Assembly: GCA_030272155.1 (NCBI GenBank)
Contig: CP126201.1
Span: 3,942,501-4,006,500 of the forward strand
DNA length: 64,000 nucleotides
Direction: 5' to 3'
Origin: Tetradesmus obliquus
Lineage: Eukaryota > Chlorophyta > Chlorophyceae > Sphaeropleales > Scenedesmaceae
The position numbers and the translations under genes are program-made. The notes under the pieces are model-generated. The model saw only the letters and a program-made list of their open reading frames with translations. It was not told where the DNA came from and ran no database searches. Position 1 is the first letter of the stretch, and the number at the start of each line of letters is the position of its first letter. Shown here one piece after another: positions 3,165-64,000 of the stretch.

Positions 3165-5531
3165 CTCACAACCAGCATGTCAGCTACTGAGCAGCAGCAG
3201 CACCACCGCCTTCTGACTCCGCCACAAGAAACTCCAGCACACAGCATTTTACTTTTCTTCCCGACCTGACTTACAAGCCTCTGCAGCTGCCCCACCCAAC
3301 TGTGTAAGCAACACAGTTCTCCAGCACACAGCATTGCTTGAAGGTGCGTAGTCGTACCAATATTAATGTATAATCTCGTCCTTTTCCAACCGTCTGGTGC
3401 CATGTTCCGCTGCACCACACTTGCAGGCACTGTACAGCAACGGCGGCTACACCTACCTGGATGTGCGCAGCCAGCTGGAGGTGGAGGAGGTGGGCAAGGT
3501 GAAGGACGCAGTCAACATCCCCTTCATGCTGGTCAGCCGCAAGTATGACCCGGAGACCCGCGAGAGGAAGATGGTCAAGGAGCCCAACCCAGACTTCGTG
3601 CGCCAGGTGCGGCAGAAAAGATTGAAAGTAAATCAAACCAGGTTCCTGCGGCAGGGGAAGTGATGCAGCAGCACCTGTCCGGCAGTAGCAGTAGCAGCAG
3701 CAGCAGCAGCAGGTTTTTTTGAAAGATGGCAAGGAGTGCAATTCAGACTTTGTGCGCCAGGTGAGATAGCAGCAGGTGTGGTGCAGCAGCAGCACCTGTA
3801 TGGCAGCAGTAGCAGCAGCAGCAGCAGGCTTGCCGAGAAGATGGCAAGGATGCAATTCAGACTTCATGCGCCAGGTGGGGCAGACAGCAGGGGTAGTAAA
3901 GCAGCAGCACGTTTGCGGCAGCAGCAGCACGTGTAACGGCAGCAGCACATGTGCGTCAGCAGTCCAGCAATAGCAGCAGGCAGGCAGCCCGCCTGCAGGA
4001 GTGCCAGCAGTTCTGTCAAAGCTTGTTGTGCACAAGCTGCCTGGCCGTGGCGGCGGGGGGGGGGGGGGGGGGGGGGGGGGGCAGACGCCTTTGCTTCGCG
4101 CTGGTCGCAGCTGCTGCACAGTGCGTACAGTCGATGACTATCAAACAACACGATTGTTTGACATCTGCAGGTGGAGAAGCCATTCCCCAACAAGGGCGCT
4201 GCCTAGCTGCTGGTGGGGCTGGTCAAATGTTGCAGACAGTGCTGTGCATACAAACGACAAGATATACAACCCTTTTTCCATAACTGCCGCTGCAGGTGGA
4301 GAAGCGCTTCCCCAACAAGGACGCCGCCAAGCTGCTGATTGCGTGCGCTGACGGGCGTCAGTACAGCATTGACGTGCTGGAGGCGCTGGATGAGGCGGGC
4401 TACTCCAACCTGGTGGGCCTGCGCGGCGGCTACTACGCCTGGTTCAAGTGAGTGCGGTTACACTATCATTGGTTCTTGCGCCTTCTTGTATAGAAACTGC
4501 ACAAGGCAGACACTACTAACCTAGTGGGCCTGTGCTGCCGCTACTACGTCTGGTTCAAGTGAGTGGGCAAATTCATATCTGAATTTTGGCATGTCTAATA
4601 TATTTCAGACATAAAGCCACTTGGTGGGCCTGCGCGGCGGCTTCTACGCCTGGTTCAAGTGAGTGGGATTACACTATCATTGGTTGTTGCGCCTTCTTGT
4701 ATAGAAACTGCACAAGGCAGACACTACTAACCTGGTGGGCCTGTGCGGCCGCTACTACGTCTGGTTCAAGTGAGTGGGCAAATTCATATCTGAATTTTGG
4801 CATGTCTAATGCGTTTCAGACATAAAGCCACTTGGTGGGCCTGCGCGGCGGCTTCTACGCCTGGTTCAAGTGAGTGGGATTAAACTATCATTGGTTGTTG
4901 CGCCTTCTTGTATAGAAACTGCACAAGGCAGACACTACTAACCTAGTGGGCCTGTGCTGCCGCTACTACGTCTGGTTCAAGTGAGTGGGCAAATTCTTAT
5001 CTGAATTTTGGCATGTCTAATGCGTTTCAGACATAAAGCCACTTGGTGGGCCTGCGCGGCGGCTACTACGCCTGCTTCAAGTGAGTGGGCGCGCACATGT
5101 TGTGTCGTTCTTGGAGTGCATTGTGCATTTTTCTGCATTAACCCACCTGGTAGGGCAGCAGGGTCTATACCACGCCTGGTTCAGGTGTTCAGGAGGGCTC
5201 AACCAACCCTGTTGATGGAGCGCTGTTGCCGTGGCTCAATTGGTGAGAGTGCCAACAAATGAGGGCGATTGAAAGCACATTTGTGAAGTAGTGTGGCGGC
5301 TGCGCCGCCCGTCCTTTGTGGTATCAAAGCGCATCATATCACATAACATTTGCTGATGTCCTTGGTCGCTTGTTTGCTTGCAGGACGTTCGACAACAAGC
5401 TGGCGCGCCGCAGGTTTGGTGAGTACGCCGAGAACTACAGCCATGACGGCGACAGCGGTGGCATCCACGCCAGCGGCGCTGGCTTTGAGAAGATGGACCC
5501 TGCTGAGGCCTGGAGGCCCCCTGTGTACTGA
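2501..5531 (+). CDS. Plastid-targeted single-domain rhodanese (sulfurtransferase-like)
   Basis: Four exons (2501-2707, 3427-3606, 4296-4447, 5384-5531) encode 228 residues. The N-terminus MALQQRTAIARRAAFSGRV is Ser/Ala/Arg-rich like a chloroplast transit peptide. The rhodanese domain follows: YTYLDVRSQLE (strand 1 and the LDVR motif), AVNIPF, the active-site loop CADGRQYS with the candidate catalytic Cys, and NLVGLRGGYYAWF at the end. Rhodaneses transfer sulfane sulfur or act as persulfide carriers; plant STR proteins include many plastid members, but I cannot assign an STR number. The C-terminal tail after the domain (about 45 residues) is charged and unassigned. Introns 2 and 3 carry repeated copies of the neighbouring exon edges, so automatic exon calls here will be unreliable. 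The true junctions were chosen because only they keep the domain intact. Confidence 0.85.
3118..3162 (+). repeat. (CAG)15 microsatellite in rhodanese intron 1
   Basis: Uninterrupted CAG run of about 15 units inside the 2708-3426 intron, on the sense strand of the gene. The intron is otherwise unremarkable. Confidence 0.95.
3723..3874 (+). repeat. Two copies of the 3' edge of rhodanese exon 2 with donor sites
   Basis: The end of exon 2 (about 3567-3606, coding KMVKEPNPDFVRQ) recurs at 3723-3760 and 3838-3874 within intron 2. Each copy keeps the CGCCAG exon end (one with ATGCGCCAG) followed by a GT donor (GTGAGA and GTGGGG). The copies are diverged and lie about 115 bases apart, separated by CAG-rich sequence. 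Both are downstream of the authentic donor at 3607. Confidence 0.85.
4055..4081 (+). repeat. Poly(G) tract of 27 bases in rhodanese intron 2
   Basis: A run of 27 consecutive G residues, preceded by GGC. Such a run could form G-quadruplexes in the transcript and is hard to sequence, so its true length may differ. Confidence 0.9.
4161..4215 (+). repeat. Copy of the 5' edge of rhodanese exon 3 (with acceptor), containing a stop
   Basis: The acceptor plus first codons of exon 3 (CTGCAG then GTGGAGAAG...TTCCCCAACAAG, true site at 4296) are duplicated with the AG at 4169-4170. After about 11 codons this copy reads into TAG at 4204, so it cannot replace the true exon start in frame. It lies upstream of the authentic acceptor. 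Confidence 0.85.
4517..5080 (+). repeat. Six-copy tandem array of the 3' edge of rhodanese exon 3
   Basis: The last 40 bases of exon 3 (coding NLVGLRGGYYAWFK) and its GTGAGTG donor recur at about 4517-4558, 4619-4658, 4732-4769, 4830-4869, 4941-4980 and 5042-5080. Two sub-types alternate: one reads NLVGLCxRYYVWF, the other LVGLRGGFYAWF. The higher-order unit is therefore a dimer of about 210 bases that has been tandemly amplified. Every copy retains TTCAAGTGAGTG. The authentic edge is the first one (4447), joined to the full exon. Confidence 0.92.
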
Positions 5532-6899: not shown

Positions 6900-8577
6900 C
6901 TACTGCTGCCCTGCAGCAGCCGTCTGCTGCTCCCCACCCTGCTGCTGCTGCTGCTGCTGCTGCTCCTCATACTCACCCTCCCCAGCAGCACCTCCCCCTG
7001 CCAGCACACCTGCCAGCATCCCCCAGCCCAAATTGAACAGCGGCACCAGCCCAGCAAGCGCCCACCACTGCGAGCCATCGCTGCGCAGCTGCAGCCCCAA
7101 ACTTGCAATGCCCCTGCTGTTTAGCTGCAGCTTGCCACCCACGCCGCTGCGGCGGCCGCTCTGCACCTGCATCGCTGCTGACAGCGCACCCATTGTCTCC
7201 CCTCTGTGGCCCATCACGCTGCCTGACAGGCTGAGAGGGGTGGAGTATTTGCTGCCCAGCAGCTGCCGCGCGTCGGTGCGCATCTCTGCATTTGCGCCCC
7301 AAGCATCGTCAGGCTCCAGGCCAGGCCGGCAGAACAGCTGCAAAGGGCAACAAGGCAGGGCAGCATGCAGCAAGCAGCGCGCAACAGGATGGTAGTCAGT
7401 GCCAGGGCCCCATTCACCAGCAGCATGACTGTGCTGGCATGCATCGCTTCCATGCATCAAGCTTCAGGGGAGGCCGGCAGAACAGCTGCAAGGGGCAACA
7501 AGCCAGGGCACAATGTAAACAGGGCAACTTGTTCAGAGACAGGCCCCAAATCAAGGGAGATTGTTGGTGTTGGCAGAACAGCTGCAGAGCAGCAAGCCAG
7601 GTAAGCAGCATGCAGCGAGCAGCCAGCAATAGGGCGGTAAGTCAGTGCCAGGGCCCTAACCTACCGGCATCGATGAGCTTGCATGGCTGCACCTTCTTAT
7701 TCTCAGTGGCAATCAACACAGTCGAATCAAGGCTTGCCAGTCCGCTTCGCCAGCCAAGCACCTGACAGCAACGCTTCCTGCTCCCCACCCGCCACCACAC
7801 CAGCAGTACAGTTTGTAGTTGCTGTTGATTGCAGGACATTTCTGTTCAAAACTGCACATCATGTGCCGCACCACCTGCACCCACCTTGCCAAGTGCCACG
7901 TCCAGCTCCGCAGCCCAACACCACACCAAAAGCACAACAACAGTACAGCCCCCAAAACAAGACATCTGCGTCTCCGATCTGCCCAACAGCTGCTGCCTGT
8001 CTCGCATCCAACCTCACCTTGCCGAGTGCCACATCCAGCTCCACAGGTGCCCCCCCAGGCGCTGTCAGCCGCAGGCAGTCCTGCACCCGCACCCCCGTAG
8101 CTACAGGCCCCTGGTGCGGCCTGCACTCCTGCGCCAGCCTTGCCACCATGAGCCCCACACATGGATTGTTGGCACCTACACAGCAGCAGAAGCACGTTGA
8201 ATTGTCCGAGCCTGTACGATATATACCATGTGGTGAACTTGGTTGATCTGGTTGGTCTGGTTGAATCAGTTGAGGTTAAACTATCAATAGAGCAGGAGAA
8301 GCACATTGGATTATCAAAGCTTGAAGCACCCATGGTGGCTGAGGCCCCTTCCAGACATGTGAATAAGCATTATGCTGCATCCAGCTTGTGCAAAAGGCCT
8401 TCCTGCGACTTTTCTTACCTATGGGGAAGCCCCGCCGCTGACTGTCCAGCCGCAGCACCATGAGCATGTCAGGTGAGGCGGGGCCGGCGGCGCCTGAGGT
8501 CTGTACGTCTGCGGAGAGCGTGGTGGTGGCGAGACCGCGGAGGTCGTGGTAGACGCTGAGCTCGCCACGCGCCTGGT

Positions 8578-8644
<67 letters not shown>

Positions 8645-11600
8645 GCCGACATACAGACACATACAGACAGCAATCAGAGGCGCCAGTCAGGTTGCAAAAG
8701 GAGAGTGCAGGAGCTATGAGGTGTGAGAGCACAGCTTGACTGAGAAGGAAGCACAGGAGCAGCACAGGAGCAGGATACAGGGTAAGCACACAGGTTGAAC
8801 AGACGACCCCCAACATCCTGGCACAGCTGGGTGGCAGTTGTGAGCCAGCAGGGCATAGCTATGCACTCCAAGCACAGCAGGGGATGCCTCAAGCACCACA
8901 GCACACATCCGCATGCCTGCAGTGCAGAGCACGCCGCACCCACCTGTACAAGCAGCTGCTCTTTGCTGGCACTTGCGCTGCTGCTGATGCGGTACGGCAG
9001 CCCCCGCAGCAGCTGGTCTGCGCTGCTGCCGCTGCCGCTGCCGCTGCTGCTGCCGCTGCTGCTGCTGCTGGGCCTGGCCACGCCTGCCTTTTCTGCCATG
9101 AAGCCCTCCACGTTGTCGGCATTGTCCATGCCTGCAGTGCGTTATAACATGTCATTTTTGTTACACCACTGTTTGATCATCATGTCTTTGGCAACGTGTA
9201 CGTCATACAGCGGCATTTCAAGCTACAGCAGCAGCTTGTTTGCTGCCATGCAGGGTGAAGATCAGGCCCAGCACATGCTGTGCCTCAGCAGACTGTTAAA
9301 AAACTTGAACCAGGAACCAGACACCAGCATGCTGGCCCACACACGCTTTGCTCTCTGAGTGCTAAAGCGAGGGTTTGCACAAGGGCAGCGCATGGCTGTC
9401 ATACAGCAGCATTGGAAGCTACAGCAGCAGCTTGTCTGCTGCCATGCAGGGTGAAAATCAGGCGCACATGCTGTGCCCAAGCATACTGTTGCAGACTTCA
9501 ATCACCAACAGTATGACACCAGCATGCTGGCCCATACACGCATTGCTCTCTGAGTGCTGAAGTGGCATTCTGCACAAGGGCAGCGCATGGCTGCTGGCTG
9601 GTGCAAGCTTAATGCTGTTGCTGTCGCACACCCTCTCACCGTGTGGCTCTATGTGTGGCCGCACAATCCAGCCGGCGCCAGGCTCCAAGGCACGGTACCT
9701 GCAGGCACGCATGTCACAGCTGATAAAACAGACGCACAACTGCAGCCGATGGCAGCAGTAATCTGCAACGTGGGGGAACAGTTGCTGCCTGCATACTTGG
9801 CACTACACCATGCTGCAATGTGCTGACTATGGGCTACCTGAAGTAAGCTGTCGCATTCACAACAAGCACGGCTGCAGATGCCGTCACATGCACATCAATG
9901 AGTTTAACAGTACTGTGCCGCAACAGCTGCACCTGCCGTCCTTGCTCACCCTGCTAGAGCAAAGAGCAACCGTGCGAAGCGCAACACGGCAGGGCACAAC
10001 AAGATACAATAAGGATAACAGCTGCACGACAGGTGCCAAAGTGGCACAATCAAATCGCAGCCCGCCCACCTGTGCCCAACAGGCGGCTGCACGCTGGGCC
10101 GCACTTGTGCTGCTGTGCGCGGCTGTGCCAGCTGCATCTTGCCTCACACCCCAGAACACACCAGGACACACTGGAGCACACCAAAACACCTTGACGCAAC
10201 ATGACACAACAGGGAACCATGAAACATAGCAGGACTGACATGGCACAGCAAGCCATGACAGGACACGATAGGACGCACACAGAATCGCCCAAACTCGCGC
10301 ACCTGTGCCCAACAGGAGGCTGCACGCTGGGCCCCACGCGCGTGGCCGTGCGCGGCTGCGCCAGCTGCATCTTGCCTCACACCCCAGAACACACCGGAAC
10401 ACACCGGGACACAATGGGACATACCATAACACACTTCAGCACAACAGAACACTTCAAAACATAACAGGACACAACATGGCACGGCAAGGCATCACAGGAC
10501 ACAGCATGAGTCATACACACCCACATCCACAAACCCGCGCACCTGTGCCCCACTGGCGGCTGCACGCTGGGCCGCACGCGCGTGGCCGTGCGCGGCTGCG
10601 CCAGCTGCATCTTGCGTCACACCCCGGAACACACCATGGCACACCCCAGCACAACAGGGCAACATGCAACTATCACAGGACACAACATGGGCACAGCAAG
10701 GCATATAGGGCACGGCAGGACGCACACAGAACCGCTCACGTCTGCGCACCTGTGCCCCACTGGCGGCTGCACGCTGGGCCGCACGCGCGTGGCCGTGCGC
10801 GGCTGCGCCAGCTGCATCTTGCCTCACACCCCGGAACACACCAGGACACACTGGAGCAATCTGAAACACCTTGACACACCATGACACAACAGGGCACCAT
10901 GCAAACATAGCAGGACGGACATGGCACAGCAATCCATGACAGGACACGACAGGACACGCACAGAACCGCCCACACCCGCGCACCTATGCCCAACTGGCGG
11001 CTGCACGCTGGGCCGCACGCGCGTGGCTGTTCGCGGCTGCGCCAGCTGCATTTTGCCTCCTGCGCGCGTGGCCTTGCACAGCAGGTCGCTGGTGCGCTGC
11101 TGCCGCCGGTTCATCTGCTGCATCTGCAGCAGCCTGAAGCGAATCTGCCGCGACAGCTCCTTGCGGTCACGCCAGCCCTTCAGGCTGCGCAGCCTGTTAC
11201 ACGAAAAGATACACCATAGAAATGTGTGATTGGCCAAAGCAGATGGATGTATACAGACACGACGTAGATTTCATAAGCAGTGTGGATGGACAACTAGTGG
11301 CAGGCGCAACAGACAAACTAGCAACATAGGCGCAGGGGTGAGGAAAAGGAAAAGAGGACTGGTATGCAACAGAGTAAGCCTAGCAAGTTGGAAGCAACAA
11401 CAGGCGCTGTCGCCTAAGCAAGCATGCCGCGAAAGCACTTCCAGGGTACACTGTGCTCACAAACCCCGGATCTGTCACCTGTGCTTTGCGTTGCGCAGCT
11501 CCAGCACTCCGCCATGATCGGGGTAGGTCAGTGGCTGGTTGAAGCCTGTCAGCTGAGTCATCAGGTAGCGCACAGGCGGGCCATCAGGCCGCCCCATCAG

Positions 11601-14600
11601 CTGCCGCATGCTGGCCGCATCCAGCCCAGCGCCAGCAGCACCTCCCTTACCTGCAGGACAGCAACAAGAGCAGCAGCGCAAACAGATGGAGGGCACACAC
11701 TCTGTCAGAGAGACGGCAGCAGCACAGTTACAAAAGAGTGCTGTGGCAGTGCAATAGTGCACGCCCACAGAATGAGCAGAGACAGACAGGGGGACGAGCA
11801 CGGCACATGTCCATCACACGCTTAATATTGATTACAGTACTTCTTTAATGTCTTCAAGAGCATGAAGATGCATGCTTGCTGCGCACCTGAGCCGGCCGCG
11901 TCTGGCAGCATCTGCAGTGCCGCCTCTGCATCTGCCAGCAGCTGGGCGCTACATTGGAAGCACAACTGAGAGGCATATTTGCAAAGGACTGCTGTAGCAG
12001 TGCGCTGCTGTACACCACCCCAACAAGAATGGATAATGGGGACAGCACCGGCAGCGCGGATTTGGACGCACAACCTTCTGGAAACTATGTAACATAATAA
12101 ACGCACGTAACACAGCGATTCCAGCGCACCTGTGCCGGAGGCATCCGGCGTCATCTGTAGCGCCGCCTCTGCATCTGCCAGCAGCTTTGCGCTCATGATG
12201 AGCACCAGCATGTGCTGCTGCCACGCCATGCCTGAGGGGATCACCGCCTGGCCCTGCGCGCAGCAGCAGCAGCAGAGCGGAGCTGTAATGTATTAGCAAA
12301 CAGCAACAGATGTTAGCTGAAAAGCCAAGCAGCAGCAAAGGATGGTGCAAATGTCTGCAGTGACAGTTGCAACCACGCCGCGCTGTGCAGCAGTCCCCCC
12401 CCCCCCCAGATCTGCTATGGTTTTGCAATCAACACGCCTTGGGAAGCACCCAACCCTTCCACGCGTACCACACAAGGCCACAGCAGCATGCCACTGCAAA
12501 GGCTGGCCCTGCAACACCCACTCGACTCTGGTCTCTATCCAGCAGACAATGCAGCTTCAACCCACAATCCTGACACACCCCACACACCTGTGCGTTCCTC
12601 CTACAGCCTGGATGGCTCTCCGCAAAGGCAATAGGGTTCATCAGCCGCGCATCCCCGCTGGCACTGCGGATAATCAGCTGCAGCAGCTGGCTGCGCTGCT
12701 GACTGTACGCATCCCAGCTCATGTGCCCCTGCCCACTTGCAGGAGGCATTGCCCCGGCATGTGTCAGCGCCACTATGGTGTTGAGCCATATGTGGGGCCC
12801 GCATGCGTTCGTGACGGCTTGCAGGACAGGCACCTCGCCGCCGGCTCGCGACGGCTGGTCAAACCTGGTCAGCGGCAGCAGACAATGAGCTGAGTCAGAC
12901 CCGGTCACACTGGGTCAAAGTGAGACATGAGATGTGCATGTGTTGGTGACAGCTTGCAGGACAGGCACCTCGCCGCCGGCTCGCAACGGCTGGTCAAACC
13001 TGGTCAGCAGCAGCAGACAGTGAGCCAAGTCAGATCTAGTCAAACTTGGTCAAAGTGCGGCATGAAAGACAGAGAAGGGTAGAGATTGAGCTGTCACACC
13101 CGCCAAGCAAAAGCAGTAATACAACCGGGGACATCATGGCACATCCAGCCAATGGCAAAGCAACGCAGCAGCAAGATCAACAGAATCAGCACACGTGTCC
13201 ATTGTGCACGCATGCAGTGCACCCATGCACACAACACCACCAAGCACACCAACCGCCCACCTGTCCACACACAGCACCATGTCTATCTCACGCTGCTGTA
13301 AGATGAACAATTCATCCACGGCAACATTGCGATTCCAACAAACGAACCTTGCTTTCAGCAGCTGCTGCTTGCGCCCACCTGTCCACATAAAGCACCGAGT
13401 CTGGCTCATGCTGCTGGAAGATGCACAGACTGTCCTTGGCAACTGTGATGTTCAAACAAACAAAAACTCTTGCCTTATTGCACCGTACCTGTCCACGTAC
13501 AGCACCAGGTCTGGCTCATGCTGCTGGAAGGCCTTGCGCAGCTTGCGCAGCACCGCAGCATTCGCAGCAGCGCCAGCAGCACTCGCTGTCAGCCCCGGTG
13601 TGTCGATCAGCGTCAGTGTCACACCCAGCACCTGACCCTGGCTCACTTCCACGCGCTTCGTGCCTCCTGAAAAGGCATCCAGCGGCAGGCTGGCTGCACT
13701 GCTGCTGCTGCTGCTGCTGCCCATGGCAAGGAGGCTGCGGATGAGCTGCGTCTTGCCGGTGCCGCGTAGGCCGATTACTAGGATCTTCACGTTCAGGTTC
13801 AGCGACGAGTTGGGGCCCTGTGAACCCATTGTATGCAGCCATACAGGCAGCAAAACTGAGTACCAGTTAAACATGCATAATGCGTACATGAGTTTGAGAT
13901 TACGGCACCGTTATGTGTGTGCTTCCGATTGCTTGCTTCACAACATCAGTGGTTCCACAGTAGCCCAAGCAGCATCAATGGCACACATGGCACCTCCAAT
14001 CGCCCAATTGCATGAGAGCATGCATGTAATTGCACCTAAATCACATTGTTCAACTGACATGTGACGTGTCACATGCTGCAACAGCTGTCGAAGCCGCAAG
14101 GTGGCTCACCTCTGCTGCTTCCAGCTGCTCCGCCTCGCGTGCCGCCAGCAGTGCTGCATCGGGCCGCAATGCAGCTGCCAAAACAACAAATTGCATGAGA
14201 ATGCATGATGTCATGGGACAGCAATTCACAGCTCGCACAGCTACATAGAAATTGCAATCTCTGTGAAACACTGCTCACCTCTGCAGCTTCCAGCTGCTCC
14301 GCCTCCCGTGCCGCCAGCAGTGCTGCATCGGGCCGCCTCGTGCCCTTCCTGAACGGCTCCTTGAGCTTCTCAGCCAGGTACAGCCGGTACAGCACCTGTG
14401 ATCGTGTTTAACAATGCAGCCAACTGTCAATAACAAGCAACGTACGAGACACACACTAAATGGAGCACGAAGCAAGGGGAAGCTGTCAGCTTGCACTGCT
14501 TTGCACATGTGCAACTGTATCTGAAGGGGAAATGGGTGCCTGTTTCTGCTTCCATCACAACTGTGCTTCCTCCTGCTGCTCTGCTGCTCTGCCGAAATCA

Positions 14601-15945
14601 GGCGGTGAGGTGCTGCACCTGCACTTGCCAACACACTGCTGCACAGGGCAAGTACAGAAAGCATTGCACCGCACTGCGATAGGCAGGGTAAGCAAGCGAC
14701 ATGCAGAAGCCAGCAGGCGCTGCTGCTGCTCTGCTGCCCACTGGGCACCAGCTGGCCGCCTACGCCTCCTCCTGTTGCACAGCACCCTTGCTGCTGCTCA
14801 ACAGTAGCAAAACCAACCGTTCTGCCGCAACCCTGCCGCTGCCGCTAGCGCTCCAACGCATGGCAGCAGATTGTGCTGCACACCCCACTTCAACCTCCTA
14901 CTTTACCCTTTTTCAATACACGCAGCATGCACCCACCTGCTTCACCAGGCCATTGTCATGCGCATAGCCCAGCCTGCTAGTTGCCCCGATGAAGTTAAAA
15001 GCACCCATCTGCTTCGCATCCCGCTACAACCTCCTACTTCACCCTTTTCCCATACATGCTGCATGCCGCACCCGCCCACCTGCTTCACCAGCCCGGTGTC
15101 GTGTGCATAGCCCAGCCTGCTGGCCGCCCTGATGAGCCGCACGCGTATGCTGTGCACGTTGGCTCGCAGCTTCTGCGTAGCTTCAGACTCCTCTGGGTCA
15201 ATCACACCCACCACTGGGCTGCTGCTGGAGGCTGCAGCAGCAGAATAACAGCACACAAACCTTTTAGGGTGTGGAAAATCAGGTTTGAAAGGCAGGATTT
15301 GTGTGGCTTCAGACTCCTCTGGGTCAATCACACCCACCACTAGGCCGTTGCTGGAGGCTGCAGCAGCACAAGAATGGCACGAAAACACTTGACATCACAG
15401 TTTGAAGGGCAGGGTTTGCAGTGCAGTTGATTGATCACAACGCAACGTCCAAGAAAAGGTCTTGCCACCAAAAAGTAAGGACTCTGCATGTGCTTGCGTT
15501 GCACGTTGCGTAATCAAAGCAGCAAAAAGTGCCTGCCTGGTAAGTTGCCATCAGCGCAGCTCTCACCTGCTGCCCTGGCTGGCAGAGCAGGCATGCCCCT
15601 GGGGCCTGCAGCAGCACCTGCATTGCCTGCTGTGATCTTGCCGCTGCTGTTGGGCCGCACTAAAGTTGGCCCTCTGCTGCTGCTACTGCTGCTTGTAACA
15701 GGCGTTGCTGCTGCATCGCTGCTGCTTCCTGCCGCCTTGGGTGCTGACGCTGCAGTGCCATTGCCTGCAGTGCGTGCATTTCTTGGCGGCAGTGTGGGGG
15801 TTGCCTTTGCCTTGGAGGCAGCTGACTGCTGACTAGCTACTGCTGATGTAACATCCTTACTAACTGCTGCCAGCCCATTGCTGCTGGGAGTTGGAGCTGC
15901 TACTGCTGCTGCTGCTGAGTCTGACGAGGTGCTGCTGCTGTGCAT
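6900..15945 (-). CDS. TOC159-type chloroplast outer-membrane preprotein receptor GTPase
   Basis: Fourteen exons join in frame to 941 residues: 15945-15567, 15231-15080, 14395-14279, 13817-13489, 12864-12588, 12253-12130, 11650-11479, 11193-10984, 9698-9640, 9131-8944, 8572-8419, 8175-8018, 7761-7693 and 7337-6900. The GTPase domain has the P-loop GLRGTGKT (about 232-239), LIDTPG (about 286-291), DLVLYVDR and LTHAGAMPP, the TOC159/TOC34 signature. The preceding SIRVRLIRAASRLGYAHDTG and YRLYLAEKL match the pre-GTPase helices of TOC159. The C-terminal half matches the membrane-anchoring M domain, including GWIVRPHIEPHG and the ending LVPLFNLGWG. The N-terminal A domain is short (about 125 residues), Ser/Ala-rich and not strongly acidic. 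The protein should recognise transit peptides at the TOC translocon. Exon 13 is the least certain exon. At least eight exons have edge copies in the flanking introns. Confidence 0.88.
7471..7581 (-). repeat. Two upstream copies of the acceptor and 5' edge of TOC159-like exon 14
   Basis: The junction TGCAG|CTGTTCTGCCGGCCT used at 7337 is repeated with acceptors just above 7485 and 7581 on the minus strand. The nearer copy runs past GCCGGCC before diverging; the farther one keeps only CTGTTCTGCC. Both sit upstream, in the sense direction, of the authentic acceptor. Confidence 0.75.
7885..7910 (-). repeat. Copy of the 3' edge of TOC159-like exon 12 with donor
   Basis: The end of exon 12, coding ELDVALGK followed by a GTGAGG donor at 8018, is repeated at 7910-7885 followed by GTGGGT. 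It lies downstream of the real donor in the next intron. Confidence 0.7.
8578..8644 (-). repeat. CTG-rich tract immediately before TOC159-like exon 11
   Basis: About 67 bases of near-perfect CTG (sense strand), broken by a few TTG units. It ends a few bases before the acceptor CACCAG| at 8573, where a polypyrimidine tract would be expected. Confidence 0.85.
10070..10826 (-). repeat. Four-copy tandem array of the 3' edge of TOC159-like exon 8
   Basis: The last 75 or so bases of exon 8 (coding MQLAQPRTATRVRPSVQPPV plus GH) and its GTGCGC-type donor recur with exon ends at 10750, 10543, 10303 and 10070; the authentic donor is at 10984. Spacing is 207-240 bases. The intervening intron sequence, rich in CACAGGACA words, is repeated too, so the whole unit was duplicated. 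The copies are highly similar, which suggests recent or ongoing turnover. Confidence 0.93.
11887..11945 (-). repeat. Copy of the 3' edge of TOC159-like exon 6 with donor
   Basis: The end of exon 6 (LLADAEAALQM.PDA.G, donor at 12130) recurs at 11945-11887 with the sequence LLADAEAALQMLPDAAGSG and an intact GTGCGC donor. It lies downstream of the authentic donor. Confidence 0.88.
12945..13008 (-). repeat. Copy of the 5' edge of TOC159-like exon 5 with acceptor
   Basis: The exon 5 start (acceptor GACCAG|, then coding FDQPSRAGGEVPVLQAVT, true start 12864) is repeated about 140 bases upstream with few substitutions. The copy then continues into unrelated intron sequence. Confidence 0.88.
13261..13432 (-). 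repeat. Two copies of the 3' edge of TOC159-like exon 4 with donors
   Basis: The end of exon 4 (AFQQHEPDLVLYVDR, donor at 13489) recurs with exon ends at 13379 and 13261. Both copies keep the GGACAG|GTGGGC or GGACAG|GTGGGCGG type donor. The nearer copy is the better preserved; the farther one has lost the EPD portion. Confidence 0.88.
14110..14168 (-). repeat. Copy of the 3' edge of TOC159-like exon 3 with donor
   Basis: RPDAALLAAREAEQLEAAE plus the GTGAGC donor (true exon end 14279) is repeated almost exactly at 14168-14110, about 170 bases downstream in the sense direction. Confidence 0.9.
14937..14996 (-). repeat. Copy of the 3' edge of TOC159-like exon 2 with donor
   Basis: The exon 2 end coding ASRLGYAHDTGLVKQ (true donor at 15080) recurs at 14996-14937 as SRLGYAHDNGLVKQ-like sequence with an intact GTGGGT donor. 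The following intron sequence is repeated as well. Confidence 0.88.
15299..15362 (-). repeat. Copy of the 5' edge of TOC159-like exon 2 with acceptor
   Basis: CTGCAG| followed by sequence coding SSNGLVVGVIDPEESEAT is repeated upstream of the true exon start at 15231, whose sequence codes SSSPVVGVIDPEESEATQ. The upstream copy has no obvious donor and runs into intron sequence. Confidence 0.88.
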
Positions 15946-20002: not shown

Positions 20003-20800
20003 TCACTTGATGCGGCGGAAGTCATGCTCCACAAAGCACTCCTCCTGCATCTCCTGGCCATCCTGCCCTGCTGCTGCTGCTGCCGCTGACGCAGACGGCA
20101 GCATCCTGCGCTGCTCAGGCACGCTGCCAAACAGCATGCGGTAGATCCCAGCCATCTGCGTGTGCAGAAACCTGCGCCAGATCACATCTCCGTCAACCGG
20201 CGCCAGCTGAACCTCGGACCGCCCGGCCCACTGCTGCTGCTGCTGCTTGGTCTTGCCGCTGCCGCTGCCGCTGCTGCTGCTGCTGCTGCTGCTGCTGCGC
20301 TTGGTGATTGGCCGCCACACGAGCAGGAACTCAGCCGCCTCTGCAGGTGCCAGTGCGGCCTCGAGTGCCACCAACGCATGTGTGGAAAACACCAGATCCC
20401 GGTCTGTCTTGCTGTTGTTGTGCACGCAGAAGGTATCATAGCCCACCACCAGCTTCTTTGCCTCTTTTTCTTTGCCCAGCATGCGCAGCAGTGTGGAGAT
20501 GGCCCACACCTTCCACCACACGCGGCGGCGGCACGCCATCACGTTGGCGTCTGTTGGCACAAAGTCGGGGCCCATCTTGGGCGCGGGGCCAAAGCTGATC
20601 CTGCAGGGGAAGCAGCAGTGCAGACGAACCCATGCGCAGCTGTTGAGGAGGTGCATTGATATGTGCAGTGCTACGTACTGTCATTGAGAAACCAATTGCA
20701 TGGTCGCAGCAGCTTTGTCAGAACATAAGTAGCAGAGGTGCCAGGTGGGCACAAAGTCGGGGCCCATCTTGGGCGCGGGACCAAAGCTGATCCTGCAGGG

Positions 20801-20844
<44 letters not shown>

Positions 20845-22588: not shown

Positions 22589-22631
<43 letters not shown>

Positions 22632-29149: not shown

Positions 29150-29181
<32 letters not shown>

Positions 29182-40594: not shown

Positions 40595-41001
40595 GATGGC
40601 CCCTCACTCACAGCTGGACTTGCGAGCCTGCAATGGGTGACACACAACGAAGCAGCAATTCGGCCAACCCAAATTCCCTAGTGTCACTTGGCAAAGCTTT
40701 TGTCAATGCAGCAAGTACAGCCAGAGTCCACAACCTGGCAACCGGATCGACTCGTCTCAACTGTTCAGGACTCGAGAGGTTTTGCTGTTGAGTGACACGA
40801 TCTTCCAGCATCGTTACCATCACTAGTGTTTTTCGCTTGAAATAATAAGCATTTTGAAACACCATGGAAACGACAAGACGTGCACGCATAGGTTGACCCG
40901 CCTGATGCTGCGCGCGTGCATGCGCCAGTGCCAAGGCAGGTGCATGCACCCTTCTGATGATCGTGCAGTCATCGAAGACGTCACAGGGACACTTCACAAT
41001 T
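40595..41001. other. Intergenic space, glycoprotein 5' / BBS8 3'
   Basis: About 0.4 kb between two minus-strand genes; it must contain the glycoprotein promoter and the end of the BBS8 transcript. Nothing else was recognised. Confidence 0.4.
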
Positions 41002-44000: not shown

Positions 44001-45466
44001 TCCCGCATTCATCCTTTCATAACAGGTGTGTGTGCATACTGTGCATCTGCCTCAACCCACCTGGTTCTTGGCTGCGCTGGCCAGCTGCTTCTCTGCGTCC
44101 CTCAGCAGCCCCAGCTGGTAGTAGGCCTCTTGCCAAAGCACAATATGTGCCTGTGTATATGCCGCAACCCACCTGGTTCTTGCTTGCTGCGCTGGCCAGC
44201 TGCTTCTCTGCAGCCCGCATGCATCCTTTCACAACATGTGTCTGTGCATACTGCGCATCTGCCGCAACGCACCTGGTTCTTTGCTGCGCTGGCCAGCTGC
44301 TTTTCCGCGTCCCTCAGCAGCCCCAGCTGGTAGTAGGCCTTGCCCAGCCGCTCCTTCCACCACCAGTCAGCAAAGCCCGCCTCAGCAGTGGCGTGTCCTG
44401 CAAGCTCCAGCACCTTCTGCATGTTGTGGTCCTGCAAGCAACGCAGCACAGCGTGCGATTAGTTGTGGTGTACATGTGGTGCAGCACCGTCTGCATGTTG
44501 TGGTCCTGCAGATGACGCGATTGGTGGGTAATGACATTGCAGTGTATACGCAATGTGGTGCAGCACCGTCTGCATGTTGTGGTCCTGCAGATGACGCGAT
44601 TGGTGGCTAATGACATTGCAGTGTATACGCAATGTGGTGCAGCACCGTCTGCATGTTGTGGTCCTGCAAGCAGCACAGCACAGCATGCGGCTACGTTGTG
44701 GTGTGCATGTGGTGCAGCACCGTCAGCATGTTGTGGTCCTGTAAGAGCAGTGCCGCGCAGTGGTCAACGGGCAGCAGAGGGCGGCGCGTTGTCTGTGTAC
44801 TCGTTACATGTGGTGCACTGACCAGACAATGGCACGTAGCGAGTTGTGAGTATAAGTGGTGCATGCCGCAGGTGCAGGCATGGGTGTGTACATGTGGTCA
44901 AGCAGAGGTGTGCTGACAAGTGACAGCCAGCAGGTGCTGTGGTGCCTCCTGTTACTGCGATACGTTCAAGTGAAAGTGCCACAGCATGCGCTCAGCTGTG
45001 CTCTATCAGCGACACCATCACCAACGTTTGTTACGGCCTGCTCACATTACATGCTGCTTGCACCAGGATATCATGAGCATGCGACTCACCACATACAGGA
45101 TGTAATCGCAGAGCACACGCGCCAGGTGCGGCCGCGCAGCATACTTGCGCAGGTCTAGCCGCTCAGCTGCTATGAAGGGGCCCCCATGGCCAGCAGCAGC
45201 CAGTGAGGCAGTGCCAAGCCGCACAAACCTGGCATGAGTTGACATGCGGCGACAACCACACATTATGTCAGCGCCTCCAACATACAAGCAAGGGTTACGG
45301 GCATGTTGTAGCAGCTGCAATATACTGCAGTTGGGATCTGTGGATACTACTAAGCATACCTACAGGCTCCCAGCGCCAGCCTTGACAAGGCTCTGCCCAG
45401 GTTCTGCGTTGCTGAAGCTACTGCTGCCAGACAGGCGTGCTGCCTTCAGTGCTGCTGCTGCTGCTG

Positions 45467-45525
<59 letters not shown>

Positions 45526-56542: not shown

Positions 56543-56588
<46 letters not shown>

Positions 56589-57021: not shown

Positions 57022-57065
<44 letters not shown>

Positions 57066-58159
57066 GGTACATTGGATTAATCATAGATGCCTCAGACAAG
57101 GGGTACCAGAAGCCCTGCAGCGTTCAAGTGTAATAAGCTGTTGCAGCTGGCACAGCCATGTGGGACGTCGGGGTCCTGGCAGCCAACTGGACAGTGTCTG
57201 GCAGCAGCTTCTGGACGTGTTTTGAGCAGAGCACATGTTGAAACACAAGGTGCATGCTGTGCTGCTGCAGGTTGGAGGGGACAGCCTGCGCGCGTTTGCA
57301 CACTTCATCACGCCCAACCTGGCTATGGGCAAGTGGAGCTTCTACATCATCTTTGGTGCCGTGCAGCTGATGCTGTCCATGGTGAGCAGGCTGCAGCGTT
57401 GCATGTCGTCATGTAGATGTTAGGCTTCCTACACAGCACACAGCATTTCTTCGCTGACCGCACCTCCTGCTGCGTCAGCTGCATCCTGGGACAGCATCTG
57501 GGCAGCTGTTTGACCGCTGAACCTTGCAGAGCATGTGTTCCGGCAACCTGCAGAGCACGTGTTCCTGGAAAGGCATATATATTGACGTTCCGGCAGGAAA
57601 CTGGCGCAAGCTCAGCAGTGCTGGGTGTGGTGCCTGACGTGCTGCTGCTGCTTGCTGCTGCTGCTGCTGCTGCTGCAGCTGCCCACCTTCAACGAGCTGA
57701 GCATGGTGTCGCTGCTGGGAGCAGTCATGAGCGTGGCTTACTGCGTCATTGCAATCGTGAGTATTTAGTTCAGTTTTGGCAGTCGATTGAGCTTTGGGGG
57801 ATGCGTTTATGAGTGTCGCAGATCACAGTTGTGTGGGTGCCAGCGCGCAGTGATGAACGTGGCCTGCTGCATCTTGGCAATTGTGAGTGTTGGTTGCGGC
57901 CATGCAGCTGCGTGATGTGCAGCTTGTACAGCAAGTTGCAAGTAACTTGCAGGCTGTCATGATTAACCGTGCGTGATGCAATTCCCCTGCACACACACAT
58001 TGGAACCTCGTGCAGGCGCTGACTATTGCATGTTGCAATGTTTTGTGCTCCTTTCTTTCAACTTCCAGGTGATGAGTGCGCGCGTGCACCCCGCCAAGGG
58101 CACCGTCAACTATGCACCAAACAGGCTACCCCTCCTGACAGCAGCTGCTGTGTGTCTGC

Positions 58160-58220
<61 letters not shown>

Positions 58221-60035
58221 ACTGCAGGTGGTGAGTGCGCGCGTGCACCCCGCCAAGGGCACAGTCAACTACGCACCCGAGGCAGTGGAGCGCACCCCAA
58301 TCGAGCGCACCATGGGCATCTTCAATGCACTCACCACGGTGCTGTTTGCATACGGTGAGTTGCGAAACTGAATAAGATTGCGGTTTGATGCATCAGCTGT
58401 GTGAGGGTTATGGGCATCTTCAATGCACTGACCACGGTGCTGTTCGCATACGGTGAGCTGGCAAGAGATCAGCAACCGCGCCAGCCTGTTGCAGCAGTGG
58501 CGTGTAGGCAGAAGAGCGCACCACGGTTGTAAGGGTGCCAGCAGCACAGTTGCAGCGCTTCTGGGGCGCCATACGAGACCGTCAGCGTGAACGGCATGTG
58601 ATTAGCAGCACTTGTGACATCGGTGACTTGGTCACCTGACGTCCGCATCCTCAAAACAACGCCTCTTCTACGTGCCCTGAAGCAAAGCGCTGAACTTGTG
58701 CTGCTGCTGCTGCTGCTGCTGCTGCTGCAGGCGGCCACAACATGGCGCTGGAGATCCAGGCCACACTGCCCATCAATGAGCAGCACAAGTCCAGCGTGCC
58801 TCGCATGGAGCGGGCCGTGCACATCACCTTTGTGGTGACTGCGCTAGCCTACCTGCTGGTGTCAATCTTTGGCTTCTATGCCTTTGGCACGAGCGTTGCT
58901 GACAACGTGCTGCTGACCTTCTCTCACGGGCCCACCAGCTGGGTGGTGGCCATGACAGGTGGGCTGCTGCTGCTGCTGTTTGTCTGTTGTGTGCTGCATT
59001 CGTGTTACCATAACCAGTGGTTGCCTCCAGCATGTCAGATCCTGCTGGGAATCCTGCTGGGCGGTGGCAATTACAGGTGGGCTGCTGCCGTCTTTGCTGC
59101 TGCTATTTGTGCACCTGTGTGCTGATCTCATTCAGCAATTGCGGATCATGTCTGATAACATGCCAGGTCATCAGATTTGATATGTTTCAATGTGCTGGAA
59201 TATGGCCGGCATGCTGCTGACCCTGGTGGCATGCAGCTCTGCTGCCAAACCAAAAGCCTCACCCGCTGCTGCTGCTGCTGCCGCAGACATGTTTGTGGTG
59301 GTGCACGTGCTGGCGGCCTACCAGGTGTACATCAACCCGGTCTTCATCATGTGCGAGGCCTCGCTGGCGCGCCGCACGCGTGGCGGCAGCGTGAATGTGA
59401 TCGTGCAGACGCTGCTGCGCATGTCTCTGGTGGTGGGCGTGACTGTGGTGGCGGTGCTGATCCCGTTCTTCGGCTCGCTCATGGTGAGTGGTTTGACAGC
59501 TCGAGATAGAGAAAAAGGGATTAGTGGATGTGTGTTGGTGCACGGTTGGTGTGGTGTGACTGTGGTGGCGGTGCTGATCCCCTTCTTTTGGTCCCTCATG
59601 GTGAGTGATGACTGAGATTGGGCTGTCAGCTTGAGGTAATGGAAGTACTGAATAATGGTTGTGTGCTGGTGCTGGGCGTGACTGTGGTGGCGGTGCTGAT
59701 CCCTTTCTTCGCCTCGTTCATGGTGAGTGGTTGACAGCTTGACTGGCTGCTTGAGGTTTGAAATCCGGATGTATCAGATGTATGGTGTGGCGTGTCTGTG
59801 GTGGCGGTGCTGATCCCCTTTTTCGGCTCCCTCATGGTGAGTGTGGAGGATATGCCGTCTCAAGAGTCAGCAGCAGCTGCACAAGTGACGCCGCAACATC
59901 ACTGGCTGTTGCTGTGTCTGCTGTGTTGCATTGAGACTGGCGGTGAGCGTCACTGTGCCTGCTGTCTGTGCCTCCTCAAGCTCAAGCTTGTAGCCCCTGC
60001 TGCTTCAACAGCCATCTTTAACAGCATTATTGGCA

Positions 60036-60079
<44 letters not shown>

Positions 60080-60294: not shown

Positions 60295-63018
60295 GCTTGC
60301 TGTTGTGTGTGCAGCAGCAGATGCAGCTCCAGCTGCTGCACTGACGCAGCGGCATTGGTGTAGTGGACAGCAGTAGATGCTGTATGCTGAAGAAGGTGTG
60401 CAAGGCATTCAACCCAGATGTTGCAGAGATTGTTTCATCATAGTCGGACGAAGTGTGTTCTGAACTTGCCCAAAGTTTCCCCTGCATGTCTACTTTGCGT
60501 GCCTGGCCTAGCTGCCTTGTCTTTGCCCTGCGGTGACGCAGTGAGGCAGGCTCTGCCATGTTGCCACCATGCACAGCAGCTGTGCAGGTGTGACGAGTAC
60601 TGCAATTATTCATGCCTGCGCGTGCCCCCAGTGAGGCATACTGCAGCAGTGTGGATTCGCACATAAAACTGCACCTTTTTTTGCAGCGTGCTTGGAACTT
60701 GCAAGCAGTTATGCCTGAGTGACACAGCTTGTGTCACTACAGGAAGTGCAGCATGGTGAGGGGTGCGGGCGGCAGTAGCATCAGCGCCCATAAACTAGTT
60801 ATGGCTGTAGCGCACGAAACACGTTTTGTTTATGGCAGTGGCACACGCAACACGTTGTGCTGTATGATCCACTTCCGGTGGTGATATGAGTTGTTGAGCG
60901 CCTTCAGCGTCTGCTGGCAGGCCCTCAGAGTGCCGCATCTTGTGTGGTGCAGGTGGGCTCTGCAAATTTTTGCTGCCTAGCTTTTTTTCAACATAGGTTG
61001 TTACAGTTTCCGCGTCCTGCGTTGTATGTTTGTCAAGTTGTATGATGTTGGGATGATGCGGCATGCGCGGCATGCGCTGTGCTTTTGCTGATGCACAGCA
61101 GTAGATGGGGCAGGTTATAATGCTCCTTTTTGCCAACATGATCGTTGGGGCGCGATGGTAGGATGGCTCTCCGCCGCAATCTATGATAAGCTATCGTAAG
61201 CGTGTTGCAGCAAGGGTGGTGTCCAGACTTCAAACAGCGCATGCAGGCATGCTTGCATGCCCTGTGAAGAGAGGGGCTGTGTTGTTTTGGTGGAGCATAC
61301 TTGCACACGGCTTTTGTGCTGTGAGAGCCAACCCACTTGGGCAGGCCACAGACCTTAACAAGGTTGCAACTGTTGCTGTGCACAATCCATATCGTAGTAT
61401 GTTCACAGAGAGTTTGCATATAGCATGAAATGTATGTTTACGGTAGAGCAAAACGCCAATGGAGACTGATGCAAGATGTGGCAAGCACAAAACTTGGCAG
61501 GAGTGTGTGCATGCATGCTCGTGGTATGCAAGTTGCATGGTGAACTGCACACAGTCCATGAGTGTGCTGTACTGCATGGATCTGCTGTGGAGTGTGAGCG
61601 CTGCCGTACTGTACGGCTGTTGGCGACAGCCGTGTAGTGCATCAGGCTTATCGTCGATGACTCTGAACCCAGCGACTGAATGGAAACTTCACTCGGTGCT
61701 TTAGCATGGCGTTGATCTGGCCAAGAATTACAGTTTTCCGGCATATACTCCTGGAGCCATTATCAGTGTCTCCTACCAGCCCTTTACCAGTCTCGTCTAC
61801 CAGCCCTTCCCGCACAGTCAAAAACCCGGTAGTCAAAACCCCATTGATGGCCACTCATCGCATGCAAGTGCACTTGCAAGTGCAACGTGACCAACCAACC
61901 TGTAAGCACCCGCAAAGCAAAGCATCTCACGACTGCAGAGCCTGCAGTCAGTTGCCAGAGCAGCCACATGCCACTGGCCTGCCTGAATGTCGGGCCTGAC
62001 AACTTAGAAAGCCGGAGATCCGGAAGCACAGATACACGTACATCAATACAAAGGACGTAATCAAAGTTGCGTGCATACTATGCATACTATGTGGTGTGAC
62101 ACCACATGCACGCAGGTAGCCCTGTCCAGGTTCAAACCGCTGATATGGAAAACTGACAGGACACCATGCAATACTCTCCGCAACTTTCACACAACATGTG
62201 GTACTTCTGGTACATCCGGCCTGGTCAAACATACAGCGTGGTCAAAACACCAAAGCCTGCAGTTGACCAGCAATCAAGTCACACACTATGGCTGCGGTGT
62301 GCGCGCCAGCAACTCAGCCCATAAGCGCCTTCTTCCTCCAACTGAACACTGGACAAATGGCAAAACAACTTGGCAAGTTTAAACACGCAAAGAGAACCAT
62401 TGCAGTCGCAACATTCACAGACACAGTCAAAACCGCAATCAAGCGCATCGTGGGAACAGCCGCTGGTCCTGGCCCTTCCTGCAACAGCAGCGACCTGCAC
62501 AGTCATACCAGCAACCAGCGTCACAGCCTCACAGGGTGGAGCACTTGCGCCTGAACCCTGTCTCAAGCCATGTGAAAACAATGGACTTGGCGTGCTGCCT
62601 CAACGAATTGACCGCCACACACCCGCTGCCCTGGCGTGCATCCAACTCCAAAAACTGTAGTAGCTGTTGCGGCACGCCAAGCAGCTGCGACTGCAGCAGC
62701 TGTGATAGAGGCGCATACCTTTGACACCTGCCTGCGACCTAATACATGCTGCTGCTGCCACAGCAGCAGATGCAGCACAAAAAAACATCAGGCCCTAAGG
62801 CTTCTGTAGATGCTGCTGCTGCTGCTGCTGCTGCAGCACAAAAAACGTGTGTCAGCAGCATTCAATCACAAGCGACTCCATTCCACAGGCCCTCTTGTGA
62901 GGGCACGTCAAACCTCACCAGCTGCTGCTGCTGCTGCTCTTGGCCCGCCGCCTCCCTCTGTTTGCCTACCTGCGCTGAACATTGCAGACCCTCCAGCTGA
63001 GGCACCCCAGCGCACACC

Positions 63019-63053
<35 letters not shown>

Positions 63054-63278
63054 ACAGCCAGCCGCTGTACACTGTGCTGCTGGTACAGCACCTGCACCTC
63101 ACACGTCAGGCCTTGCAGCTGAGGCACCTATACACACCAGCTGCTGCTGCTACAGTCGCCTACTGGTACAGCACCTGCACCTCACACGTCAGGCCCTCCA
63201 GCTGAGGCACCTCAGCACATACCGCCTGCTGCTGCTGCTGCTACTACTAGCACCAGCTACTAGCTGTAGTACAGTCGC
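60295..63278. other. Convergent 3' intergenic space, permease / raffinose-synthase-like
   Basis: About 3 kb between opposing stops, the longest gene-free stretch here. The right end contains CTG runs and copies of the last coding segment of the neighbouring gene. A short perfect inverted word (GTGGTGTGACACCAC) lies near 62091-62105. Short open frames near 61650-62030 on the minus strand show no family resemblance. No RNA gene or transposon was recognised. Confidence 0.45.
62970..63215 (-). repeat. Copies of the terminal coding segment and stop of the raffinose-synthase-like gene
   Basis: The last coding bases (VPQLEGLQCEVQVLYQ and TAG, true stop 63279-63281) recur at about 63215-63162, where the TAG is also kept, and 63130-63066. 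A shorter fragment occurs near 63005-62970. The copies are separated by CTG/CAG runs. They lie beyond the stop codon, so they are in the presumed 3' UTR or flank. Confidence 0.88.
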
Positions 63279-64000
63279 CTACTGGTACAGCACCTGCACC
63301 TCGCACTGCAGACCCTCCAGCTGGGGCACCTCAAACTCAAGCCGGTTCGTGAACTCATCCCACTGAAAGTTGTGCGAGTTGAGGTTCACCAGAACCCTAG
63401 CAGGCCGCACAGACGAGTATGCAAGGAAACGCCCACAGCCCTTGAGCTGCAATGCAGCAACAGCACTCGGCGAGCCGCCCACAGCCGCCGCTGCTGCCGC
63501 CGCAACCACCGGGCTGCTGCTGCTGCCCCTGCTGCCGCCGTTACCACCCGCCGCTGCTGCTGCTGCTGTTTGCGCGTGTGCATGCGCAGGTGCCAGCTGG
63601 CAGCTGCCCACTGCGCCGCCGCCATTGAACATATCGACTAGCCCCAGTGGAGCGAACCTGACTGAGCCGCAGACCTGCAGGGGGCTCACCCACACTAAGT
63701 CTGAGCCTGAGGGCCCCAATGCTACACTAATGCTGCCACTGCTGGGTACCACTGCCAACTCCTCCGTATCATACCGATACATCGCAAACAGCTGCTGCTG
63801 CTGCTGCTGCTGCTGCTGGGGTGGAGCTGCTGCTGCTGCGGCGCCGTCCACGCCGGCCGCTGCCGCTGCGTCCGCCCACCTGCTGCTGCCCCCATCACCA
63901 TCAGCATCAGCGTCAGCAGCCGCACTGCTGTGTGCAGGCTGCCGCAGGGTTTCAACGTCGCCTGGCGTCACAGCTGTGGTGAGGGTGCTGCCGCGCTTGT
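63279..64000 (-). CDS. Raffinose synthase / seed-imbibition (SIP1)-like glycosyl hydrolase, C-terminal part
   Basis: Open to the right edge; only the last 240 codons are in the window, with no intron seen. LVWVSPLQVCGSVRFAPLGL and DMFNGGGAV match the conserved end of the raffinose-synthase/SIP1 family (GH36-like; FAPIGLxxMxNxGGA), and LKGCGRFLAYSSVRPARVLV matches GxGxFxAYSSxxP. The upstream TLTTAVTPGDVETL resembles the family's VxxxDV segment. Members transfer galactose from galactinol to sucrose or hydrolyse alpha-galactosides. The catalytic part lies outside the window, so the reaction cannot be judged. Gln, Ala and His-Ala inserts from triplet runs interrupt the domain. Confidence 0.8.
   Translation of the reverse strand, partial: KRGSTLTTAVTPGDVETLRQPAHSSAAADADADGDGGSSRWADAAAAAGVDGAAAAAAPPQQQQQQQQQLFAMYRYDTEELAVVPSSGSISVALGPSGSDLVWVSPLQVCGSVRFAPLGLVDMFNGGGAVGSCQLAPAHAHAQTAAAAAAGGNGGSRGSSSSPVVAAAAAAAVGGSPSAVAALQLKGCGRFLAYSSVRPARVLVNLNSHNFQWDEFTNRLEFEVPQLEGLQCEVQVLYQ

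Follow-up and report, generated by a model that had tools for sequence, protein, structure and literature searches.

Genes and exon-edge copies in the window

This study concerns short copies of exon edges that lie in the introns of protein-coding genes of the green alga Tetradesmus obliquus, in a genome of 104.66 Mb on 17 contigs with a GC content of 57%. It starts from a window (the whole stretch of 64,000 nucleotides, C11:3942501-4006500) in which such copies occur, singly or in arrays of up to six, on the intron side of many exons. The copies follow a rule of direction and bear signs of coding constraint. Gene models were made with a two-strand gene finder that we wrote in C and trained on the sequence itself, and the splice junctions given here are predicted.

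Predicted proteins of the window gave Pfam matches to Rhodanese, an AIG1/MMR_HSR1-type GTPase, NAD_binding_4 (fatty acyl reductase), TPR, Aa_trans and Raffinose_syn, and one of the seven had no match. The queries were parts of predicted proteins; in the case of the permease and the TPR protein, predicted exons lying on copies had been removed from them. The permease query retained a single copy of each edge and covered the Aa_trans profile from 23 to 408 of 410. These matches agree with the rhodanese, TOC-type GTPase, fatty acyl reductase, permease and raffinose synthase labels of a first-pass annotation, and they support a TPR protein where that annotation proposed BBS8, a name that is its own. 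Its MCMDC2-like label was not borne out: the single predicted protein examined there had no Pfam match, and the repeat is weak (26528-26626 and 26632-26748, 71%).

Comparison of the window with itself gave 54 high-scoring segment pairs (HSPs), of which 49 were direct and at most 914 bp apart; the four inverted pairs and the single distant one joined simple-repeat-like stretches. A search with exon parts alone found 41 copies, or 32 once readings of the same array from its other side were removed, and adding the copies seen only as HSPs brings the number to about 43, close to the roughly 45 counted in the first-pass annotation. The features are listed below by position and strand, with the evidence in brackets (clean pairs are the single-junction pairs described in the next section).

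3427..3606, plus: rhodanese exon whose donor edge is copied (gene model, Pfam)
3723..3763, plus: donor-edge copy, 86% (self-comparison, junction overlap, clean pair)
3837..3979, plus: second, weaker donor-edge copy with an intron part, 71% (self-comparison)
4165..4212, plus: acceptor-edge copy of exon 4296-4447, 90% (clean pair)
4296..4447, plus: rhodanese exon with both edges copied (gene model, exon-only search, Pfam)
4513..5089, plus: six donor-edge copies (starts 4513, 4619, 4724, 4830, 4935 and 5041) in a 211-bp double unit (self-comparison, exon-only search)
7457..7656, minus: acceptor-edge copies 7457-7510 and 7572-7656 of TOC-type GTPase exon 6977-7337 (self-comparison, junction overlap)
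10061..10850, minus: four donor-edge copies (about 10062, 10296, 10535 and 10744) of exon 10976-11193, 233-bp unit (self-comparison, exon-only search)
12936..13065, minus: acceptor-edge copy of exon 12588-12864, 88% (self-comparison, clean pair)
13254..13420, minus: donor-edge copies (about 13261 and 13379) of exon 13489-13817 (self-comparison, exon-only search)
14104..14167, minus: donor-edge copy of exon 14272-14395, 97%, called an exon by the gene finder
14874..14992, minus: donor-edge copy of exon 15080-15231, 79% (self-comparison, junction overlap)
15292..15386, minus: acceptor-edge copy of the same exon, 15080-15231, 85% (self-comparison, junction overlap, exon-only search)
20745..20816, minus: acceptor-edge copy of fatty acyl reductase exon 20007-20600, 94% (clean pair)
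22858..22881, minus: donor-edge copy of exon 22968-23162, exact over 24 bp (self-comparison)
38911..39063, minus: acceptor-edge copy of exon 38498-38792, 76% (self-comparison, clean pair)
43630..44219, minus: six donor-edge copies of TPR protein exon 44273-44431, several called exons by the gene finder (self-comparison, exon-only search)
44482..44749, minus: array of acceptor-edge copies of the same TPR protein exon, 44273-44431 (self-comparison)
58066..58118, plus: acceptor-edge copy of permease exon edge 58225-58277, 94%
58410..58460, plus: permease donor-edge copy, 94%, with two silent differences
59547..59843, plus: three donor-edge copies (59547, 59666 and 59783) of permease exon 59237-59483 (self-comparison, exon-only search)
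62980..63214, minus: donor-edge copies of raffinose-synthase-like exon 63294-64000 (self-comparison, exon-only search, Pfam)

In a genome search the rhodanese array unit had only local matches. Simple repeats are also abundant in the window: CAG/CTG runs are very common (e.g. 3118-3163, 8578-8644, 21837-21905, 58144-58218 and 60037-60079), a CTG...CTGCAG run sometimes stands directly 5' of an acceptor as if it were the tract before the splice site (e.g. 60037-60081), and a run of 27 G occupies 4055-4081, in the rhodanese intron that separates exon 3427-3606 from exon 4296-4447.

Position and direction of the copies in 314 kb

The sample was widened to 314 kb, made up of the window and five 50-kb blocks on contigs C1, C2, C3, C4 and C8 (block coordinates become contig coordinates on adding 1,000,000 for C1, 2,000,000 for C2, 3,000,000 for C3 and 1,500,000 for C4 and C8). 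The gene finder predicted 404 introns and 808 splice junctions, with a median intron length of 254 bp in the first 264 kb. The C8 block (C8:1500001-1550000) contains a unit of about 20 kb repeated at a spacing of 19.3 kb with 99.8% identity, with 5.3-kb sub-repeats at 98.6-99.0%; this is a recent segmental or tandem duplication, and part of the C8 sample is thus counted twice.

Self-BLAST, with simple repeats excluded, gave 165 nearby direct HSPs, reduced to 113 by keeping one nearest pair per place. Predicted junctions were overlapped by 88 of these pairs, the others being confined to exons (8), introns (7) or intergenic sequence (6), or mixed (4). Under a stricter overlap rule 83 of the 113 lay on a junction, against 43.8 +/- 5.1 for random placement (z = 7.8). 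The excess persisted within genes (81 of 104 against 49.9 +/- 4.4, z = 7.0) and among genic pairs with one copy in an intron (55 of 69 against 36.3 +/- 3.6, z = 5.2). An edge lay inside a local repeat in 114 of the 404 introns. Searching with exon parts alone identified 145 copies at 82 non-nested junctions, which divide equally into 41 donors and 41 acceptors and have between one and six copies apiece, although some of these junctions are the two ends of one array and four come from a single tandem repeat at 39-41 kb of the C4 block; 53 of the 145 copies, mostly within arrays, were called exons by the gene finder. Exon-edge copies are therefore recurrent, as the first-pass annotation had it: the arrays of the window lie in the genes that it names, and the pattern is present on other contigs.

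Its rule of direction, with donor copies downstream of the exon and acceptor copies upstream, was followed by 42 of the 43 clean pairs, those with a single junction (acceptor copies upstream in 22, donor copies downstream in 20); the sole exception, a donor copy upstream, sits inside an array on C1. In each clean pair the copy lies inside one predicted intron and the alignment crosses an existing junction; set aside were 37 multi-junction pairs, seven whose second copy was exonic and two short ones. As neighbouring direct repeats within a gene, these pairs belong with internal tandem gene duplications. Copies of complete exons with both acceptor and donor were not seen among the 43 clean pairs, which have one edge each, and the multi-junction arrays are ambiguous in this respect. 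Arrays of near-identical full units are also present. Elsewhere, in the C4 block, a 50-bp copy at 98% (18925-18974 and 19050-19099) has homology ending at a predicted stop codon, with the second copy in the 3' flank.

Spacing and spacers

The copies have a preferred length scale. Of the 113 pairs, 70 are spaced at 95-160 bp and 10 at 240-257 bp, with a minimum of 67, and a tandem-repeat finder returned 20 rows with periods of 90-139 against five with periods of 40-89 (its 59 rows of period 20-39 were taken as simple-repeat variants). Simple arithmetic, with introns of about 250 bp and units of about 125 bp, indicates that about half to two thirds of harmless duplications would cross a junction, and part of the pattern is thus expected from geometry. 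None of the 11 spacers examined had dispersed relatives in a search that skips very common words: each matched itself, and one also matched a local partial repeat.

Silent changes and splice sites in the copies

The 62 intronic copies differ from their exons by 126 silent, 101 replacement and five stop changes, with the junctions of the C4 39-41 kb repeat set apart in this count (and excluded from the 46-junction, edge-reaching and array-gradient analyses below). This is 54% silent (bootstrap 46-62%), whereas a neutral copy next to an exon under constraint should give 38%. The silent share drops with divergence (23:8, 57:45 and 46:53), and copies of at least 94% identity show 23 silent changes, seven replacements and one stop. 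Taking one copy for each of 46 junctions gave 100 silent and 64 replacement changes.

Changes were also assigned to branches in 22 arrays, picked by hand so that no array was read twice and including copies called exons by the gene finder. The copy branch carried 69 silent and 83 replacement changes with no stop among the 152, and the branch of the exon or of the copies' common ancestor carried 19 silent and five. Matched for base change and CpG context, the copy branch was 45% silent (69 of 152), where 29% would be expected (p = 1e-5); the silent proportion was 51 of 126 (40%, p = 0.004) for changes restricted to a single copy and 45 of 109 (p = 3e-4) for those outside CpG. CpG or transition bias was rejected as the source, because the excess remains when CpG sites are left out and when only transversions are counted. 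As a sole cause, gene conversion by the exon was rejected by reasoning, since it does not itself favour silent differences.

Splice dinucleotides were retained slightly better than exon dinucleotides. The first-pass annotation had stated that most copies keep GT or AG, and this was so in 36 of 39 mapped pairs and in 120 of 131 edge-reaching copies found by exon part alone, against an exon dinucleotide identity of 84.9% (p = 0.017). Copy donors match at +1 (93%), +2 (94%), +3 (85%) and +5 (90%), falling to 42-62% at +8 to +12, a shape that arises partly because the true site is itself constrained.

Divergence of exon and intron parts

Exon parts of copies can often be aligned where intron parts no longer can. 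In 32 pairs homology ends 2-12 bp into the intron, with an exon part of 27-77 bp in 30 of them and of 110 and 230 bp in the other two. As a set, the intron flanks of these pairs retain a faint similarity (local score 22.0 against 17.7, p = 7e-4; 6 of 32 singly above the 99th percentile of the null), whereas their exon-side flanks retain none (p = 0.95). At least some duplications therefore took in intron, with a breakpoint within the exon, and the intron parts then decayed faster. Simulated neutral change left every flank recognizable as long as exon divergence did not exceed 0.11, and still 90% of them at 0.16. Of 57 observed pairs with an exon divergence of 3-16%, however, 40 have intron flanks that score at the level of the null, in a comparison whose null is not strand-matched and in which 7 of 80 rows, outside the bins cited, map a copy onto itself. 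In young arrays the exon and intron parts are equally diverged.

In the C4 block, a tandem duplication of 793 bp that includes predicted exons and introns (39163-41037, about 80% identity) served as a control for divergence. Its introns have diverged by 0.16-0.19, about as much as third positions (0.18), and its first and second positions by 0.10-0.15; the latter are thus weakly constrained, which makes this a poor control. Hypermutable introns were rejected on the equality of intron and third-position divergence, with that reservation.

ClpP-type genes

Four ClpP-family loci outside the blocks were also inspected, and three have repeats over predicted junctions; the fourth, at C2:4.25 Mb, has none. 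The relevant features are as follows.

C1:10.09 Mb: ClpP-family locus with junction repeats
C15:3.79 Mb: ClpP-family locus with junction repeats
C2:3.72 Mb: ClpP-family locus with junction repeats, 72-bp unit
C15:3784676-3787894: locus L036, a ClpP-type gene with exon LSTQIVGSLL...YSYSSLIL

L036 is a single locus chosen for being striking. Its upstream acceptor copy encodes the same 24 residues as the exon with 11 silent changes, and a downstream donor copy encodes the same 31 residues with eight, so that all 19 differences, counted by eye, are silent. Another donor copy, shorter by three bases, carries replacement changes. A paralogue was rejected as the source of these copies, because beyond the exon and its local copies the best scored match in the genome has E = 0.12. 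Judged from the sequence, a copy that had never been functional would hardly show silent-only differences. By eye, the acceptor copy is open to a possible donor and the donor copy is preceded by a possible acceptor with matching phases, so that the two might conceivably form a composite alternative exon enclosing the canonical one.

Discussion

From the local direct repeats, the direction rule, the size class, the lack of dispersed relatives of the 11 spacers, the junction excess and the bias towards silent sites and intact splice dinucleotides, we infer a duplication step, a DNA mechanism behind it and a reason for the constraint on the copies. A recurrent local process would tandemly duplicate segments of about 95-160 bp, or join homologous strands with a register shift of that size. 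Where such a segment crossed a junction it would be tolerated, as the outermost acceptor or donor could still serve the complete exon while the copy became intron, after which the direct repeats could cause some units to multiply, giving arrays with as many as six copies. A fraction of the copies may have been working exon edges for much of their history, through out-of-register joining of diverged alleles or through continued use in splicing, and such a history is the most likely cause of the constraint. Taken as a whole, this account (local duplication or out-of-register joining across junctions, splicing at the outer edge, and some copies that formerly were or still are working edges) is one that we consider probable, if by no great measure. 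The first-pass annotation had proposed tandem duplication across a junction with only the complete exon remaining functional. The first part accounts for position, direction and array anatomy; the second is doubtful as a general rule, given the silent excess, the splice dinucleotides and the silent-only differences at L036, although other copies do look dead.

Several observations weigh against this account. The constraint is moderate (rough omega 0.5-0.6) and uneven, silent and replacement counts being overdispersed among loci (p = 0.004), with 5:0 at some loci and at C4 26934 a copy with no silent and seven replacement changes that looks dead; moreover, some array copies were called exons, and part of the constraint may thus stem from real exons. 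Most of the 32 pairs pinned to a junction are singly indistinguishable from copies that never held intron, and four of the six most diverged pairs keep alignable introns, which speaks against a simple decay with exon divergence. Spacing modulo three is flat (30:30:28), on which ground in-frame inclusion of copies was rejected. There is no gradient of identity with distance from the exon over 31 arrays, some read from both ends (p = 0.49), and a conveyor model with the youngest copies beside the exon was rejected accordingly. Exons copied at both edges are not overrepresented either (6 of the 356 internal exons; p = 0.28), which led us to reject the insertion of an exon into an older exon that was left in two halves.

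The copies might instead be in use, as alternative donor or acceptor edges or as composite alternative exons kept by selection on the protein. The silent bias, the absence of stops on the copy branch, the intact splice dinucleotides, the many copies called exons and the silent-only copies of L036 would all follow. However, most copies have one splice edge, their spacing ignores the reading frame, dead copies exist, stops make up five of the 232 differences seen in intronic copies, close to the 2.6% expected under neutrality, and identical peptides offer no obvious benefit. We regard use in the present as unlikely to be the general explanation.

Exchange between diverged functional alleles, or between those of hybrid parents, is about equally doubtful when taken alone. 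Here the copy would have served as a working edge on a different haplotype before being brought in by out-of-register joining, which suits both the silent differences, strongest in the most similar intronic copies, and the unrelated-looking introns beside similar exon edges. The cost is very high allelic divergence or hybrid ancestry (at L036, 11 silent changes in 24 codons) and very frequent events, and the most similar copies are mainly in tandem arrays.

Plain neutral tandem duplication is the proposal that copies are inert from birth and simply decay. Young arrays with equal exon and intron divergence, the 83 replacements among 152 copy-branch changes, the existence of dead copies and a geometry that favours junction-spanning segments are all consistent with it. 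It is insufficient because exon parts outlast intron parts, as the null-level flanks of the 40 pairs indicate beside a simulation that leaves 90-100% recognizable, because silent changes are in excess both on the copy branch and in the 62 intronic copies, and because L036 has silent differences only; we regard it as quite improbable as a full explanation. False local duplications from merged haplotypes would explain why homology often stops at exon edges, where haplotypes would diverge, but the graded divergence, the arrays of up to six copies and the lack of gaps (no N in the first five blocks) speak against an assembly artefact, which we consider very unlikely. Insertion of mobile elements or introners with target duplication, suggested by unrelated spacers between similar copies, was rejected as extremely improbable, since the 11 spacers and the rhodanese unit lack dispersed relatives in a DNA search that skips very common words.

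On a bolder reading, up to about one tenth of splice junctions (82 of the 808 predicted in the sample, a count in which the two ends of an array sometimes figure separately) might have a reserve exon edge in the intron with codons and splice site still under selection, although we put this forward only tentatively and consider it rather unlikely. If true, the genome would contain a concealed set of exon ends, alternative or replaceable, that arose through a duplication process acting at a characteristic length. Intron growth by local duplication has so far mostly been inferred from scattered cases, and this genome displays all stages from identical arrays to decayed edges. It allows the spectrum of duplications to be measured; one can also ask how the spliceosome chooses the outer edge among near-identical competitors, whether and why intronic sequence can stay under coding constraint, and whether the hidden edges are used.

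Tandemly duplicated mutually exclusive exons are whole exons with both splice sites; they too place neighbouring copies of similar coding content in one gene, whereas the copies here mostly have one edge and a truncated exon interior. Internal gene duplication was reportedly treated by Gao and Lynch in 2009. Among the known systems, intron gain by tandem duplication (PMC3443670, PMC4974935) is alike in the local duplication of gene segments with splice signals; in the excerpts of those papers, however, duplication of an AGGT inside an exon creates a new intron, or else a structure of intron and exon is duplicated, whereas here no intron is added and one already present acquires a partial exon edge. 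Partial exonic tandem duplications in Drosophila (according to excerpts of PMC2891723, 1901 duplications with a median of 367 nt, 624 with exonic sequence) also show partial duplication within genes to be frequent, but those described here are fixed in one assembly and intronic, fall into a narrow range of sizes and carry a single splice edge each. Fill-in by Pol alpha-primase at staggered breaks yields small tandem duplications (PMC8355091) and can be considered, by analogy, as a source of the size class; the excerpts of that report concern mouse and human cells in which breaks with 43- to 54-bp overhangs were induced, and draw no link to exon edges. Introners (PMC9860276, in excerpt) likewise change introns on a genome scale, but they form dispersed families of similar introns over many genes, and the 11 spacers and the rhodanese unit do not. 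Our search of the open-access literature returned nothing on exon-edge copies in green-algal introns, which is a weak negative. Tandem duplication as a source of introns and internal duplications are thus already known from the excerpted work (PMC3443670, PMC4974935, PMC2891723), and what is new, as far as the open-access literature reaches, is the density of the copies, their size class, the position rule at scale and the signs of constraint that they bear.

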